DNA from: Candidatus Tiamatella incendiivivens
GTDB taxonomy: Archaea; Thermoproteota; Thermoprotei_A; Sulfolobales; Acidilobaceae
Length of the DNA: 64,000 nt
Direction of reading: 5' to 3'
Assembly: GCA_015522635.1 (NCBI GenBank)
Contig: WALW01000027.1
Location: 1-64,000 of the forward strand
A model generated the notes under the pieces. The model saw only the letters and a program-made list of their open reading frames with translations, was not told the DNA's origin and did no database searches. Positions 6,395-48,396 of the stretch are shown here, one piece after another. The position numbers and the translations under genes were made by a program. Positions within the stretch are counted from its first letter, which is position 1. Each line of letters begins with the position of its first letter.

Positions 6395-7069
6395 TTGGCT
6401 AGAGAAATGAATATTGATCGCGAGCTGATAGAGTGGGGCAGTAAACATAAAAATATTAAAGTCCTTGTAAATGCAGTCAGAGAACTGGTTAATTGTTGTT
6501 ATTCTGTAAGAATTAGATGCACAGATCCTCCTATCGCCTCCACGGGATTCCTATATAGTCTGGGGTTTCACCAATACCTTATCAGGAGCTTCTGGTCTGG
6601 ATTACCATTAGGCGTATATGATATTCCACTGTACAAATGGCTCAACACGGATTTCTCGTTGGAAATCGAACACTTGATTTCGGGTGTAAATGAGATTAGA
6701 TGCGGTGAACTAGTTATTCCAATAGATGAATTGGATGCTAGAATGAAGAACACTGTTTTCACTCCGAGATCCCACTTGTTATACATAAGAATAAAAGGTA
6801 AAGTAGGGGGAAACGTTATTCGATTAAACGTTATTAGACTAGCAAAGCTTATAGAGACCTATGAGCCGGGGTGGGTCAACTCTCTGTTGGACAGCATCTT
6901 AAAAGCATTCGACGATCCTAGCTTGCTTATAGACTTAGAAAATAAGGTTCTGGAGGAAACTAGAAAACGAGCGCTACTTTTATCGTTTATCCTCCCAAGA
7001 ATACCTAGAAGCGTAGATGACTTGAATAAACTAGTTCCTATTGTTAGACTCATTTCAAGGAGGCAGTGA
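6395..7069 (+). CDS. Hypothetical protein, 224 aa
   Basis: I do not recognise this protein. It is soluble, mixed alpha/beta and has three Cys in a short N-terminal stretch (VNCCYSVRIRC, about residues 32-42). The C-terminal half is helical with a long Lys/Arg-Glu segment (about 175-195). The start is either TTG at 6395 or the ATG at 6407; neither has a clear ribosome binding site, so a leaderless message is possible. It stands alone between the divergent ketopantoate reductase gene and the radical SAM unit. Confidence 0.5.
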   Translation: MAREMNIDRELIEWGSKHKNIKVLVNAVRELVNCCYSVRIRCTDPPIASTGFLYSLGFHQYLIRSFWSGLPLGVYDIPLYKWLNTDFSLEIEHLISGVNEIRCGELVIPIDELDARMKNTVFTPRSHLLYIRIKGKVGGNVIRLNVIRLAKLIETYEPGWVNSLLDSILKAFDDPSLLIDLENKVLEETRKRALLLSFILPRIPRSVDDLNKLVPIVRLISRRQ

Positions 7070-7174: not shown

Positions 7175-8695
7175 GTGAGTAGTAATTATAATACGGCAAA
7201 TGAGAAAAAAGGGGATATTGGGAGATTATTAACTGGAATTAGATTAATTTTCAATAACCCTGTAACCAGAAGTTACCTAAGAGCTGGGACTAGGAGAGTC
7301 GATTGCTGTGAAGAAGATAAGTGCAGGGAACAAACCGTATTGTTTCATGCTCTCTCATCCTTTACAGGTTCACATGTAACAGGTTGCCCTGTAACAGCAA
7401 GATTCCTAAGCTGGATGATCAATGCTACAATAAAAATTGGAGTAAAAGTCCTTAGAGGTGATACTGAAAGTGCGAAAGAGGCTCTCAGGGATCCTGCTGT
7501 TAGGAGAGGAGTATCGCTTGTAGTGGAGGGTCTAGCAAGGTATGGTGTTACTGTTCCACAGAAAATGCCTGCCCCCTTCCTTATAGTTTGGAACTTCACG
7601 AACATGTGTAATTTAAAATGTATACACTGTTATCAAAGGGCTGATAAGCCTTTACCGGATGAACTTACTCTAGAGGAGAAGCTTGAGGCTGTAAGGCAGA
7701 TAGATAAGGCTGGTGTTGCAGCTGTAGCTTTAAGTGGCGGCGAGCCGACGATACACCCACATTTCTACAGGATAGTCAAAGAACTAGCTGACAGGGACAT
7801 ATATATATCTGTGGCTACCAACGGTACATTTTTTGCTAAAATGGAAAACCTCGAGAAAGCGGTCAAAGCTGGTATAAGATACGTGGAGGTTAGCGTTGAT
7901 AGTGCTAAACCTGAAGTTCATGATAGGTTCCGCGGTGTTCCAGGGGCTTGGGAAAAAGCCACAACAGCTCTTAGGAATGCAGTTAAGTTAGGATTAAATA
8001 ATGGAATGGCTACAACTATCACTAAGTTTAACATAAACGAGGTTGAAGAAATACTTGATCTTGCGGAGGAGATTGGTGTAAATAGAGTCATATTCTTTAA
8101 CTTTGTCCCAACAGGTAGAGGCGCCGACTATGCATGGATGGACCTGACACCTGAGGAAAGAGAAGAGTTCCTTAAGACAGTCTATCGGGAAATGAAAAAG
8201 AGAAGCCTGGAAATAGAGTCTACTGCACCCCAGTATGCAAGAGTAGTCCTCGAACAAAGCCATGGAGAAGAGGTGTCACCAACTCACTTTTATGTAGGCA
8301 GTAATAAAATAGTCAATGCTTTAGCAGAATTTGTCGGAGGTTGTGGTGCAGGAAGAATATATGCTGCTCTACAACCAAATGGTGATGTAGCACCATGCGT
8401 ATTCCTACCTATTAAAACTGGAAATATTAGGGAGAAAATGTTCAGGGAAATTTGGGATACCTCAGAAGTCTTCCAGACTCTCAGAAATAGAGAACTCCTC
8501 AAAGGCTACTGCGGCGAATGCCCTTATAAATACGTGTGCGGAGGATGTAGAGCAAGAGCGTATGCATATTTCCATGATATAACTGCACCAGACCCCGGGT
8601 GTATCTTGAATAAAAAAGATTGGGATAATATACCTAAACCTCACGTTACTATAAGACAGTCTTCTAAGTCCAGGGATTCTGGTGGTGGGAAGTGA
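7175..8695 (+). CDS. Radical SAM protein with N-terminal Cys region and SPASM-like C-terminus; tetraether-synthase candidate
   Basis: A 506-aa iron-sulfur enzyme. The radical SAM motif CNLKCIHC gives C145, C149 and C152, followed by SGGEPTIHP. The N-terminal extension has C44, C45, C50 and C71, enough for an extra metal site, and a hydrophobic helix near 77-95. The C-terminus carries a SPASM-like set (GGCGAGR..., GDVAPC..., then YCGECPYKYVCGGC at about 445-458 and a last PGC). GTG start is preceded by GGTGA. Its stop overlaps the next gene by four bases (GTGA), so the two should be translated together. Radical SAM enzymes with extra N- and C-terminal metal sites include the archaeal tetraether lipid synthase Tes. 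That assignment is my inference, not proven; heme or peptide maturases are alternatives. Confidence 0.8.
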   Translation: MSSNYNTANEKKGDIGRLLTGIRLIFNNPVTRSYLRAGTRRVDCCEEDKCREQTVLFHALSSFTGSHVTGCPVTARFLSWMINATIKIGVKVLRGDTESAKEALRDPAVRRGVSLVVEGLARYGVTVPQKMPAPFLIVWNFTNMCNLKCIHCYQRADKPLPDELTLEEKLEAVRQIDKAGVAAVALSGGEPTIHPHFYRIVKELADRDIYISVATNGTFFAKMENLEKAVKAGIRYVEVSVDSAKPEVHDRFRGVPGAWEKATTALRNAVKLGLNNGMATTITKFNINEVEEILDLAEEIGVNRVIFFNFVPTGRGADYAWMDLTPEEREEFLKTVYREMKKRSLEIESTAPQYARVVLEQSHGEEVSPTHFYVGSNKIVNALAEFVGGCGAGRIYAALQPNGDVAPCVFLPIKTGNIREKMFREIWDTSEVFQTLRNRELLKGYCGECPYKYVCGGCRARAYAYFHDITAPDPGCILNKKDWDNIPKPHVTIRQSSKSRDSGGGK

Positions 8696-10158
8696 ATATT
8701 ACTTTAGTTTCCTCTCCTGGGCTTAGAAGACTGGAGATTTATCAGAGTATTGGTGTTAGGGCTCCACCTTTAGGACTAGCTTATATAGCCTCAGTCCTTG
8801 AAGAAGAGGGCCATAAAGTTAGTATAATTGATGCCCCTACGCTAGAGCTTTCAGTAAAAGAAACTGCAAGGGAGGTTTTGTCTAGGCATCCTGATGTTGT
8901 TGGCATATCAGCTGTTACACCTACCGTAAAGGGTGGATATGCTGTTGCTAACCTGTTAAAAGAGAAAGATCCTAGTATTAAGATTGTAATGGGTGGCCCT
9001 CACGTTTCTTTCATGTTTGAGGAAGCATTGGCTAATGGAGCTGATTATGTAGTTATAGGTGAAGGAGAACTTACCTCAAAAGAGCTAATTGAATTTCTAG
9101 AAAAGAGAGATGGCGAGCCACGGAATATTAATGGGTTGGCATATGTTAGTGAAGAAGGGAAGGTCAGAGTCACTCAGCCTAGACCTCTAATTAAAGATAT
9201 CGATAAACTTCCTCCACCAGCTAGGCATTTGCTTCCAATGGATAAGTATACATTATTCGATAAGCCTATAAAGATAATTCATGTGATGGCTAGCCGAGGA
9301 TGCCCTTATGGTTGCATTTATTGTACGACAAGCTATTTCTGGGGTAGACGTTATAGAGTGAGGAGTGTTGAAAAAGTTGTAGATGAAATTGAAGATGCTA
9401 TGGATACATATAAAACTAATATTGTGGTTTTCTCGGATGACGAGCTGACGCTTATCCGTAAATGGGTCTATGATCTTGTAGAAGAAATTAACCGTAGGGG
9501 ATTGGATATCACTTTTACTTGTGGTTCTAGAGTAAGCAGTATTAATCCTGATATGCTTAGGGAACTTCGGAGTGCTGGTTGCACCACTATTTATTATGGA
9601 GTTGAATCCTATAAGGATGAGGACATAGAAAAAATAGGTAAAAAAATAACAATACAACAAGTAGTCAATGCTGTAAAATGGACTAGAGAAGCGGGTATAG
9701 AGAGTGCAGGTAGCTTTATACTAGGATTTCCCTGGCAAACCATTGATGATATGAAAAACACAGTGAAATTCTCGAAGAAACTAGGGGTTGATTATGCCCA
9801 GTTCACTGTTGCCACACCTTATCCTGGAACACCGTTATATTACCAGGTAAAGAAGGATAATTTGATCGAGATAACTGACTGGGATTACTATACTACAATT
9901 TATCCAGTGATGAAGGGATATCACTTCGAGAGAGAAGTCTTATTCAAGTTGCTGAGCTGGGCTTACAGGAGCTTCTACCTGAGACCAGCATTTATACTTC
10001 ATCAGATAAGAAGAGGCCGTTTTAAGACGATGTGGGATATTGCTTCCAGAGCTGTTAAAGGATATGTAAAAAGTAAGCTTTCTAAACAGGAGGAAGAAGA
10101 ATTTTATGAGTTGAAGAAGCCTAAGAAAACGATCAAGGTAACTCTACGAGAACGTTGA
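8692..10158 (+). CDS. B12-binding-type radical SAM protein (COG1032 class)
   Basis: A 488-aa protein with an N-terminal cobalamin-binding-like Rossmann domain (residues 1-140; APPLGLAYIASVLEEEGH, then GGPHVSF and VIGEGE) and a radical SAM core with C204, C208 and C211 in CPYGCIYC. The later part (FILGFPWQT, TPYPGTPLY) is typical of COG1032 enzymes such as methylthiotransferase-like and lipid-modifying members. The C-terminus is basic. GTG start overlaps the stop of the preceding radical SAM gene by four bases. GDGT ring synthases of Sulfolobus are believed to be in this class; with the upstream partner it could act on membrane lipids. That is inference only; anaerobic cyclase or methylase roles remain open. 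Confidence 0.8.
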   Translation: MNITLVSSPGLRRLEIYQSIGVRAPPLGLAYIASVLEEEGHKVSIIDAPTLELSVKETAREVLSRHPDVVGISAVTPTVKGGYAVANLLKEKDPSIKIVMGGPHVSFMFEEALANGADYVVIGEGELTSKELIEFLEKRDGEPRNINGLAYVSEEGKVRVTQPRPLIKDIDKLPPPARHLLPMDKYTLFDKPIKIIHVMASRGCPYGCIYCTTSYFWGRRYRVRSVEKVVDEIEDAMDTYKTNIVVFSDDELTLIRKWVYDLVEEINRRGLDITFTCGSRVSSINPDMLRELRSAGCTTIYYGVESYKDEDIEKIGKKITIQQVVNAVKWTREAGIESAGSFILGFPWQTIDDMKNTVKFSKKLGVDYAQFTVATPYPGTPLYYQVKKDNLIEITDWDYYTTIYPVMKGYHFEREVLFKLLSWAYRSFYLRPAFILHQIRRGRFKTMWDIASRAVKGYVKSKLSKQEEEEFYELKKPKKTIKVTLRER

Positions 10159-10252: not shown

Positions 10253-10552
10253 TTATACTTGAGTGACTCTCAGTATTGTAAGGCCTCCTGCACTTGGTGG
10301 GAAAATATCTACAGTGTCTTCTTTCTTTAACTCTTCATTCAACCCTCTGTCTAGGAAAACGTTCCGACCGTTAACTAGGATTATAGGATTATAGCCCTTC
10401 TCTACATATCTATCTATTTCTCTCTGTATTTCTGGGATACTCTTGAGTAAACACTTGACTTTCCTACAGTTATCATCTAGTTTTACTAGTTTTTCTTTCT
10501 ATCCTAGAAGCACTCTAAGCCCAGCATATATCCTGACTTTTATAACGGGCAT
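10253..10552 (-). pseudogene. MoaD/ThiS-like protein gene interrupted by an in-frame TAG
   Basis: Reading the minus strand from an ATG at 10552 gives a 99-codon frame that is open except for one TAG (10499-10501) at codon 18. The product would be a beta-grasp sulfur-carrier-like protein: VKVRIYAGLRVLLG at the N-terminus, VNGR (60-63), a VDIFPPSAGG end-motif (81-90), then an unusual nine-residue tail after the GG. The ATG overlaps the end of the radical SAM maturase gene by 13 bases, with a GAGGGA site (10562-10567) nine bases upstream, so it was built to be expressed. No ATG or GTG in the frame after the TAG could restart it. It may be a recent nonsense mutation, a readthrough case or a sequence error. 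Such MoaD-like proteins normally serve pterin cofactor synthesis, fitting the tungsten enzyme next door. Confidence 0.65.
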
Positions 10553-11637
10553 CTTACTATATCCCTCGCGTAAGGGCAACTGGCACAGCTTGGCTGATTT
10601 CCCCAGCAATCCATATCATTGGATAGTGTGAGAGTGCAATAGTCCCGTAACGGGCAATCAGGACAGCTCGGATAGTACATGAAATCTAGGTTGAATTTAT
10701 ATTGCGTATAGTTCTCAGAGTTCCAAATATCCATCAAACTCTTTTTATTGAGGTCTCCGAGTATCACAGGGTTTATTGTTCTCGTTACCTTGTAGAAAGT
10801 ATTTCTCCATCCGTGGGCCATGTATATGCATGGAGCTACTTTGCCGTCCCATCTAACGAACAATGCATTCCTAGAAGCGAAAGGGCACTCTCTTTCGGTC
10901 GACAAGCCCAGCTGAGGTAGGCTTATGAGGATGTTATGGATCATACTTAACCTAGCGAGCCTCCCTACTATCCTAGCCACTTTCTCTTTGCATTTGTCAT
11001 CTATATAGCACGCCAGTGATTTTTCCTGTCCTGGTGTTAATGGAAGAATGTTTGACACAATAAACCTTGTTGCTTTTAGTTTTCCAGCAAGTTCAATGGT
11101 TTTAACTAAATTATCTACATTGAGCTTAGTTAGTGTGAACTGGACGATTATTTCCGGCTTTCTAGCCATTTTCTCCTTTCTATACCTATTTATGTCTTCT
11201 AGCGCTTCAAGGAGCCTCGAAAGATCCCCGCCTTTTCTTATTATAGAGTATAAATTGCTTTCACTGCTATCTATGCTTATATAGAGCTCATCTACTAAAT
11301 CTTTTATCCAACTAGTATTTTCCTTGAGATAGTAACCGTTTGTATTCAAAAGTACCTTGAACCCGAATTCCTTGGCTCTCCTGGCAAAGTCCCCGATTCT
11401 AGGATGAAGTAAAGGTTCTCCCCAACCTGAGAAAGTTATTTTCCCTACACCTGAGTCATATGCTTCTTTTATGATCTTACCATATAATTCTGGACCCATG
11501 AATCCTTCTGGATCCGTCATTAGATTCCTGAAACAATAAATGCATTTATAGTTGCATTTATTCGAGATCTCGATCATTAATTCTCTAGGATGACTGGCCA
11601 TAGAGGGTTTTACCAGCCATTTTTTCACTTTGAACAA
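10540..11637 (-). CDS. Radical SAM/SPASM maturase of the tungsten-cofactor oxidoreductase type
   Basis: A 365-aa protein with the radical SAM motif CNYKCIYC (C28, C32, C35), a GWGEPLLHP stretch near 80, and a C-terminal SPASM domain rich in Cys (CPFASR, CIYM, CPDCPLRDYC, CWGNQPSCASCPY). This architecture and its position beside an aldehyde:ferredoxin oxidoreductase gene fit the family annotated as tungsten cofactor oxidoreductase radical SAM maturase, whose exact reaction is unknown. Start is TTG, with GGTG about nine bases upstream. It is divergent from the oxidoreductase gene, sharing the AT-rich 11638-11741 spacer, and its 3' end overlaps the MoaD-like gene. Confidence 0.75.
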   Translation of the reverse strand: MFKVKKWLVKPSMASHPRELMIEISNKCNYKCIYCFRNLMTDPEGFMGPELYGKIIKEAYDSGVGKITFSGWGEPLLHPRIGDFARRAKEFGFKVLLNTNGYYLKENTSWIKDLVDELYISIDSSESNLYSIIRKGGDLSRLLEALEDINRYRKEKMARKPEIIVQFTLTKLNVDNLVKTIELAGKLKATRFIVSNILPLTPGQEKSLACYIDDKCKEKVARIVGRLARLSMIHNILISLPQLGLSTERECPFASRNALFVRWDGKVAPCIYMAHGWRNTFYKVTRTINPVILGDLNKKSLMDIWNSENYTQYKFNLDFMYYPSCPDCPLRDYCTLTLSNDMDCWGNQPSCASCPYARDIVRCPL

Positions 11638-11741: not shown

Positions 11742-13634
11742 ATGTTGACAGGAGGATATATGGGTAAATTCCTTAGAGTAAATCTCTGGAGCGGGAAACT
11801 GCAAGACGAGGTTTTACCTGATCACATTCTAAGAAAATGGATAGGTGGTAGAGGCCTAGGAGTATATTTAGCGTTAAAGGAGGTAGATCCTAAGGCTGAT
11901 CCTCTTGGTCCTAGGAACAAGGTATTTATACTGACAGGCCCTGCAACGGGCGTGGCGGGAGTAACCGAGTCTGGTAGATGGTGTAGTGTAACAAAAGCGC
12001 CACTAACAGACACTGTACATGACAGTCAAAGTGGCGGAAACTTCGGTCCAGAATTAAAGTTCGCAGGATATGATGGTATATTCATTGAGGACATGTCCGA
12101 GAAGCCTGTTTACCTATGGATCCATGATGGAAAAGCAGAGCTGAGAGATGCAAGTCATTTATGGGGGCTAGATGTTCACTCGACTACAGACAAAATACGA
12201 GAAGAGTTGACGGGCGAGGTAGGTGTGAATGAAGCGAGTAAAATCAAAGTAGCTGCTATAGGTCCTGCAGGTGAGAGGCTAGTTAAATTCGCCGCAATAA
12301 TGAACGATAAGAACAGGGCAGCTGGAAGAGGAGGACACGGAGCTGTCCTTGGTAGTAAAAAACTCAAGGCTATAGCAGTCCTGGGACATCAAGTCCCGAA
12401 GATAGGTAAAATGGATCTATTTAGAGAAGTAGTCAAAGATATAGTGAAAAAACATAAAGAGAATCCTGTCACAAGCGAAGGCCTTCCACAGCTAGGAACA
12501 GCTATACTCGTCAATATAATAAACCAAAACGGATTGCTACCGACCAAGAACTTCCAATCAGGCTATTTCGAGGGAGCCGAGAAAATAAGTGGTGAAACGC
12601 TAGCCGAAACCTACCTAGATAAGAAAAAGAGCATAGAAGAAGCATGCTGGGGCTGTGTAATAACTTGTGCTAGATACTCCCGAGTAGGAAAATCACCCTT
12701 CAGCGGTGAAGGTGGCGGCCCCGAGTATGAAACCGTCTGGGCTTTTGGAGCCCAGACAGGCAATGATAATTTCGAGTCCGTTATAAAGGCTAACTTCTTA
12801 GCCAATGAACTAGGCTTAGACACTATTTCGACGGGCAATACGATTGGAGCCCTCTTTGAGCTCTTGGAAAAAGGCAAATTCCCCAAAGAAAAGCTGAGGG
12901 GGTTGAAAGCAGAGTGGGGTACCCCTGAAGCCGTGGTTGAGCTAACGTGGAGAACAGCGTTTAGAAGCGGAGTAGGGGATGAGCTTGCAGAAGGCTCCTA
13001 TAGGCTGGCAAGCAAATACGGTGCACCAGAACTATCCATGAGTGTTAGGAAACAAGAGCTACCTGCATATGATCCTAGAGGGGCACAAGGCCATGCCTTA
13101 GCATATGCAACAAGCAACAGAGGAGGCTGTCACTTAAGAGCTTATATGATAAGCCCTGAAGTACTGGGAGTACCTATGCTTGTAGACAGGTTTGAGACGA
13201 AAGGCAAACCTGCCCTTGTTAAAGAGTTCCAGGATGTATTCGGTGTAATTGACTCTATGATTCTATGTAAATTCAGTAGTTTTGCCTTATGGGATGAGGA
13301 TTATGCCAAGATACTTTCTGCAGTAACCGGCTGGGATATTAGTAAAGATGAAGTCCATAAAATAGGTGAAATGATATATAATGCTGAGAGGGCATTCAAT
13401 GTGTTAAGCTTCGGAGATGGAGTTGAATATGATACGCTTCCTCCTAGATTCTTGAAAGAACCCATGCCTGAAGGTGCTAGCAAGGGACAGGTGGTAAGGC
13501 TAGATGAAATGCTTCCTGAATACTATAAGCTAAGAGGTTGGCTCAATGGAAGACCAACAAGAGCAAAACTAGAGGAATTAGAGCTTAAATGGATTGCAGA
13601 TAGGTTAGAAGAAGAAAATCTTCTACCGGAATAA
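11742..13634 (+). CDS. aor: Aldehyde:ferredoxin oxidoreductase (tungstopterin enzyme)
   Basis: Oxidises aldehydes to acids in the cytoplasm, passing electrons to ferredoxin, usually in peptide or sugar fermentation. The N-terminal pterin-binding domain has GKFLRVNL and WIGGRGLG (about residues 7-40), and the central domain has AAGRGGHGAVLGSKKLKA. The [4Fe-4S] ligands are C302, C305 and C309 (CWGCVITC) plus C509 (MILCKF), matching the spacing of the Pyrococcus enzyme. Length 630 aa is normal. The first ATG has GGGAG seven bases upstream; a second ATG (11760) also sits behind GGAGG, so either could be used. The region close to 600 (LPEYYKLRGW) matches AOR more than FOR or GAPOR, but the substrate is not fixed. 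Confidence 0.9.
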   Translation: MLTGGYMGKFLRVNLWSGKLQDEVLPDHILRKWIGGRGLGVYLALKEVDPKADPLGPRNKVFILTGPATGVAGVTESGRWCSVTKAPLTDTVHDSQSGGNFGPELKFAGYDGIFIEDMSEKPVYLWIHDGKAELRDASHLWGLDVHSTTDKIREELTGEVGVNEASKIKVAAIGPAGERLVKFAAIMNDKNRAAGRGGHGAVLGSKKLKAIAVLGHQVPKIGKMDLFREVVKDIVKKHKENPVTSEGLPQLGTAILVNIINQNGLLPTKNFQSGYFEGAEKISGETLAETYLDKKKSIEEACWGCVITCARYSRVGKSPFSGEGGGPEYETVWAFGAQTGNDNFESVIKANFLANELGLDTISTGNTIGALFELLEKGKFPKEKLRGLKAEWGTPEAVVELTWRTAFRSGVGDELAEGSYRLASKYGAPELSMSVRKQELPAYDPRGAQGHALAYATSNRGGCHLRAYMISPEVLGVPMLVDRFETKGKPALVKEFQDVFGVIDSMILCKFSSFALWDEDYAKILSAVTGWDISKDEVHKIGEMIYNAERAFNVLSFGDGVEYDTLPPRFLKEPMPEGASKGQVVRLDEMLPEYYKLRGWLNGRPTRAKLEELELKWIADRLEEENLLPE

Positions 13635-47170: not shown

Positions 47171-47265
47171 TGGAGCCGCCGGCGGGACTTGAACCCGCGA
47201 CCACCGGCTTACAAGGCCGGCGCTTACGGCCCCGCGCAGGGGTCTACCGGCTGAGCTACGGCGGC
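47171..47265 (-). tRNA. tRNA-Thr (TGT anticodon) with a possible D-arm intron
   Basis: On the minus strand the gene starts GCCGCCG and ends CGGCGGC-T-CCA, so CCA is encoded. The anticodon arm CCGGC-CTTGTAA-GCCGG gives TGT, and the T-arm is GCGGGTTCAAGTCCCGC. The D-arm reads GCTCAGCCGGTAGA and then 19 extra bases before GCG. With those bases removed the D stem is GCTC/GAGC and the RNA is 76 bases. The insertion is at 47224-47242. Boundaries can slide by one base, and a strict splicing motif is not clear by hand. Confidence 0.85.
47224..47242 (-). other. Putative D-arm intron of tRNA-Thr
   Basis: The 19 bases (minus strand CCCCTGCGCGGGGCCGTAA) break the 3' strand of the D stem between GA and GC. 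They contain a CCCC/GGGG hairpin. Confidence 0.65.
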
Positions 47266-48261: not shown

Positions 48262-48396
48262 TGGTGCCGCCGCCGGGATTTGAACCCGGGACTTCCGGAT
48301 CTCCCAGGACCCCTGTATTTCGAATAGGGCTTGACCTTCGGTTCTACTACTACCCGTATGAGTCCGGCGCTCTGCCATAGGCTGAGCTACGGCGGC
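48262..48396 (-). tRNA. tRNA with CAT anticodon (Met, or Ile2), 56-base intron
   Basis: The minus strand begins GCCGCCGTAGCTCAGCC and ends CGGCGGC-A-CCA. Anticodon stem is CCGGA/TCCGG, anticodon CAT (48358-48360), T-arm CCGGGTTCAAATCCCGG. The D-arm (GCTC, AGCCTATGGCA, GAGC) is normal. A 56-base insertion lies after position 37 (48301-48356); the spliced RNA is 79 bases. It lacks the initiator signature of three GC pairs in the anticodon stem, so it is an elongator Met or the lysidine/agmatidine-type Ile tRNA; I favour Met. Confidence 0.88.
48301..48356 (-). other. tRNA-Met intron
   Basis: Insertion at the usual 37/38 site. The first bases of the intron (CGGG) can pair with the 3' strand of the anticodon stem (TCCG, with one G-U), as expected for the bulge-helix-bulge core. 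Confidence 0.7.

Follow-up and report, generated by a model that had tools for sequence, protein, structure and literature searches.

What is to be made of a gene that appears to encode a small sulfur carrier, but that has a stop codon close to its start and extra residues beyond the glycine pair at its expected mature end? The frame in question occupies positions 10253-10552 on the minus strand of the window, the whole 64,000-nucleotide stretch of DNA that was analysed, and is predicted to encode a MoaD/ThiS protein of the UblC type in 99 codons followed by TAA. Read from 10552 down to 10253, it gives MPVIKVRIYAGLRVLLG, an in-frame TAG at codon 18 (10499-10501), and then KEKLVKL...DIFPPSAGGLTILRVTQV before the terminator. 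The codons for Gly89 and Gly90, the expected mature C-terminus, lie at 10283-10288, and are followed by a nine-residue tail, LTILRVTQV (10256-10282). Re-reading of the minus strand agrees with the original prediction on all of these points: the frame is intact, codon 18 is its sole interruption, and nine residues lie beyond the glycine pair.

The profile evidence indicates that this is not a chance frame. With the stop codon entered as X, it scores 30.6 bits against the Pfam ThiS family PF02597 (cut-off 22.5, residues 6-90) and 50.9 bits against the NCBIfam model TIGR01687 moaD_arch (cut-off 49.5, residues 4-90), both above the curated cut-offs, so the MoaD-like identity proposed from the letters alone is borne out. 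Profile matches to the solved structures 2g1e, 2m19, 2l52 and 1vjk were also found. As in TIGR01687 and PF02597, the FPP-x-x-GG pattern is conserved; unlike the usual members, which have uninterrupted reading frames and normally end in Gly-Gly, the host frame is broken by the TAG at codon 18 and runs on for nine codons after its glycines at 89-90.

The neighbourhood is also that of a UblC-type gene. Adjoining the frame on the same strand is an intact gene (10540-11637) for a tungsten cofactor oxidoreductase radical SAM/SPASM maturase, TIGR04317 (386.6 bits, cut-off 380), and nearby, on the plus strand and divergent from the maturase-MoaD pair, is an intact aldehyde ferredoxin oxidoreductase (AOR) gene with AFOR_N and AFOR_C domains (11742-13634). 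By its maturase, the closest named relative of the host is the metagenome-assembled genome Candidatus Tiamatella sp. S016_46, at 82% identity. Judged by sequence and gene order, the frame is a UblC-type MoaD/ThiS sulfur carrier, predicted kin of Thermococcus TK1065.

Other genes in the vicinity may be recorded here. A 224-aa gene at 6395-7069 (plus strand) has no significant Pfam or NCBIfam match, and adjoins an AhbD/NirJ-like radical-SAM gene (7175-8695), after which comes a BchE-like B12-binding radical-SAM gene (8692-10158). On the same contig beyond the window (G000:C27:170793-171554, G000 being the host genome), a single 254-aa frame combines a ThiS/Urm1-like N-terminal domain, ending ISHGG, with a phosphoribosyltransferase; the N-terminal part scores 16.8 bits for Urm1 and 15.5 for ThiS, both below cut-off, and Pribosyltran scores 84.4 bits. 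A frame of equal length is found in the genus mate G001 (contig C155).

The junction with the maturase has been kept. The end of the maturase gene (RCPL and its stop) and the MoaD ATG overlap by 13 bases at 10540-10552, as had been claimed, and this arrangement is retained in both genus mates of the host; in G056, which belongs to a different family, the maturase/MoaD junction sequence is very similar. The ribosome binding site of the earlier reading corresponds to GAGGG at 10563-10567 on the minus strand, within the maturase gene and approximately 10 nt 5' of the MoaD ATG, and is best described as a possible Shine-Dalgarno sequence. Between the TAG and codon 71 there is no in-frame ATG, GTG or TTG, and an internal start therefore cannot rescue the MoaD fold.

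Comparison with relatives gives the likely origin of the stop. Tryptophan occupies the codon 18 column in 25 of 32 aligned homologues, including both genus mates, where it is encoded by TGG, so that the host TAG is one substitution away. When 214 genomes of the order were searched with a profile, the host gene was the only one with an internal stop among the matches listed (approximately 150 MoaD-like sequences). A set of seemingly interrupted homologues was rejected, as these loci show terminal stops within over-extended alignments, and the profile search agrees. Frameshifts in related strains, which the original prediction had taken as the sign of a plain pseudogene, were not found in the two genus mates; both genes are intact.

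Nor does the rest of the gene look like the product of long decay. Identity to the two intact genus mates is 57/91 and 51/91, and the former value equals the identity between the mates themselves. Values of dN are 0.26-0.34 against dS of 1.3 to saturated, and the host gene has 12 unique residues where the mates have 12 and 6; the low dN/dS ratio and the lack of excess unique residues both argue against prolonged relaxation. The strongly conserved columns L12, G17, N61, G62, P85, P86, G89 and G90 are all retained, codons 31 and 78 differ from the family majority, and there is neither an indel nor a second stop across the 99 codons. In simulations of neutral drift, sequences that had accumulated 0.2-0.65 substitutions per site still showed no more than one stop in approximately 15-50% of cases. 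The lack of a second stop thus limits the age of the lesion only weakly; the conserved motifs and the absence of indels are the better argument.

The explanation that we favour, and consider probable, is that a dispensable UblC-type MoaD paralogue has very recently acquired a nonsense mutation. An AOR-linked gene of a thermophilic archaeon would have been working until very recently, when a single change of the Trp18 codon from TGG to TAG would have caused translation to halt after 17 residues, yielding neither the beta-grasp domain nor the C-terminal Gly-Gly. What is known of the family and of T. kodakarensis suggests that in intact relatives the protein would hold sulfur as a thiocarboxylate at its C-terminus, for delivery to molybdopterin and hence to the AOR tungsten cofactor. 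Such a loss may well be tolerable, because the host genome retains an intact MoaD-MoaE fusion (on G000:C23; 231 aa, with the MoaE domain at 79 bits) and because TK1065 (ublC) can be deleted in T. kodakarensis. The host genome contains four AOR genes. Several of its other genes have decayed by comparison with the genus mate G002, which indicates that gene loss is under way: frames at G000:C19:313024-313782 and G000:C8:39311-39713 have several lesions each, and one at G000:C19:176583-177039 has a frame break and deletions. Against a recent nonsense mutation, a consensus error or a minority-strain variant would leave the same trace, one substitution and no further lesion; the drift simulation is weak; and the maturase and AOR both appear fully functional, as would be slightly more expected if MoaD were still needed.

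The main rival, rather unlikely but deserving serious consideration, is that the stop is an error of sequencing or assembly, or a variant of a minority strain that became fixed in the consensus, and that the true gene is intact and ordinary. The substitution is isolated in an otherwise conserved gene whose relatives are intact, and the host genome is a draft of 27 contigs with 95.8% completeness. Consensus errors are conceivable in this assembly, given a possible homopolymer frameshift in a different gene (C10:107973-107978, an AAAAAA run). Substitution errors, however, seem to be uncommon: in a non-overlapping set of 327 genes, comprising approximately 97,000 codons aligned between the host and G002, the TAG in MoaD is the only clean mid-gene nonsense codon, and the remaining hits are over-extended starts, antisense frames and multi-lesion pseudogenes. 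The genuine multi-lesion decay of several other host genes likewise speaks against a mere error here.

Readthrough or recoding, in which the TAG would be read as tryptophan or another residue by a suppressor tRNA or by programmed readthrough to give a low level of full-length MoaD, is very improbable. In its favour, the frame is open and conserved past the TAG, and the maturase overlap and ribosome-binding site are retained. However, TAG terminates 288 of the 1140 ORFs of at least 150 aa in the host genome (approximately 25%), and this stop usage, together with the gene comparison with the genus mate, rules out a genome-wide reassignment. The suppressor tRNA with a CTA anticodon that the original prediction suggested seeking was absent from the 43-44 tRNAs found by ARAGORN (introns included), a T-arm/acceptor scan and the Rfam tRNA model, which together covered 1,453,960 of 1,454,292 bases. 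These scans also missed tRNA-Trp and the initiator tRNA, probably on account of introns or gaps, and a multi-intron tRNA could escape them, so the test is strong, yet not absolute. Pyrrolysine recoding was rejected, since no PylS match above cut-off occurs in the host genome. The sequence 3' of the TAG contains no stable RNA structure, folding no better than shuffled sequence (z 0.64), and no relative among the matches listed from the 214 genomes has a stop at codon 18. Recoding or readthrough of this codon is unsupported.

Several tRNA genes needed closer reading. A candidate reported as 'tRNA-Stop(tta)' at C10:21852-21960 proves to be tRNA-Gln(TTG) when the intron is set at the canonical position 37/38, and its body is nearly identical to that of the tRNA-Gln(CTG) on C5. 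In the window, the minus-strand gene at 47171-47265 is a tRNA-Thr(TGT) whose D-arm region contains additional sequence, a non-canonical intron, and which ARAGORN labels tRNA-??? by default. Another minus-strand tRNA gene, at 48266-48396, carries a long insertion within its anticodon loop; it is called Ser(cga) by ARAGORN, but the loop CTCATA resembles a CAT anticodon.

A pseudogene of greater age, under neutral drift from an early point in the divergence of the genus, would account for the stop and for the departures from the family majority at codons 31 and 78, but is scarcely credible beside 99 codons without an indel or second stop, intact motifs and an identity to one genus mate as high as that between the two intact mates. 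Similarly far-fetched is a compound model in which low-level readthrough of the TAG and subsequent trimming by a JAMM protease would limit the supply of UblC twice, at termination and again at proteolysis. The four possibilities with which the locus was originally left can accordingly be sorted: a recent pseudogene and a sequence error both survive, readthrough does not gain support, and a precursor that needs trimming is plausible, but as a question apart from the stop.

The tail is indeed a separate matter from the TAG. Within the genus its length is nine residues in the host, three in one mate (GGLTQ) and zero in the other; a segment that varies in this way is not a conserved feature of the gene, nor is it part of the damage. 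In another genus of the host family, the tailed forms end in GGLTLYSVS, GGYLTLSGLG and GGYLTLPGLG, and other members end in Gly-Gly. The motif (Y)LT directly after the glycines is common to the tails of the two genera (loci L010, L222, L252 and L005, and 10256-10282 of the window; GGLTILRVTQV and GGLTQ are included), which suggests an old tail that may have been lost several times.

A tail beyond Gly-Gly would be part of the intact form of the gene, and an active product would need trimming, most plausibly by a JAMM/Prok-JAB protease. One such protein is encoded in the host genome at G000:C1:35965-36252 (HTHIYGPPEPSLKD), and its HxHx7SxxD motif is intact. A stand-alone MoaD was found in 77 genomes, in 15 of which it has a tail of 1-9 residues; Prok-JAB/JAMM proteins are encoded in 12 of these 15 as against 19 of the 62 untailed genomes (Fisher p 0.0008). 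Outside the host's own family the association has p 0.024; it disappears when permuted within families (family-stratified permutation, p 0.57), so that shared ancestry explains it equally well. The recurrence of short Gly-Gly tails in the stand-alone MoaD proteins of the host family, with a JAMM protein nearly always encoded, nonetheless offers a small testable lead.

Two sets of known JAMM substrates provide a point of comparison. In Deinococcus, the JAMM protease DRJAMM cleaves MoaD-MoaE fusions (PMC8832034), and in Caldiarchaeum the JAMM protein CsRpn11 cleaves the ubiquitin precursor CsUb (PMC6043591). As in those JAMM-cut ubiquitin-like proteins (Ubls), removal of the tail would be needed to expose the glycine, and the host genome has a JAMM/Prok-JAB protein; unlike them, the host tail is short, variable and missing in one genus mate. 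By analogy, JAMM trimming of the tailed, intact MoaD relatives is plausible.

The closest known counterpart of the locus is in Thermococcus kodakarensis, where tk1066 (AOR), tk1065 (ublC, MoaD family) and tk1064 (radical SAM) form a cluster (PMC11323500). TK1065 is an intact gene that is reported to belong to the Ubls with a C-terminal Gly-Gly (PMC11323500). The host locus resembles it in family and in the grouping of AOR, MoaD and radical-SAM maturase genes, with MoaD probably in an operon with the maturase; it differs in the TAG at codon 18 and the nine-residue tail, and in gene order, the host MoaD lying downstream of the maturase and ublC lying between the AOR and radical-SAM genes. The delta-ublC strain is viable and in pyruvate medium retains approximately 54% of AOR activity, with FOR activity undetected; in maltodextrin medium, GOR activity was near normal (PMC11323500). 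Sulfur transfer to tungstopterin is known only from the Ubls of T. kodakarensis (PMC11323500). The three Ubls of T. kodakarensis are redundant in tungsten-cofactor synthesis, with the exception of GOR (PMC11323500), and a comparable redundancy may apply to the host. If the stop is real, the host would be a natural ublC-null that has kept its maturase and AOR, a counterpart from the field to the T. kodakarensis deletion, and would support the view that sulfur carriers are redundant in the synthesis of the tungsten cofactor.
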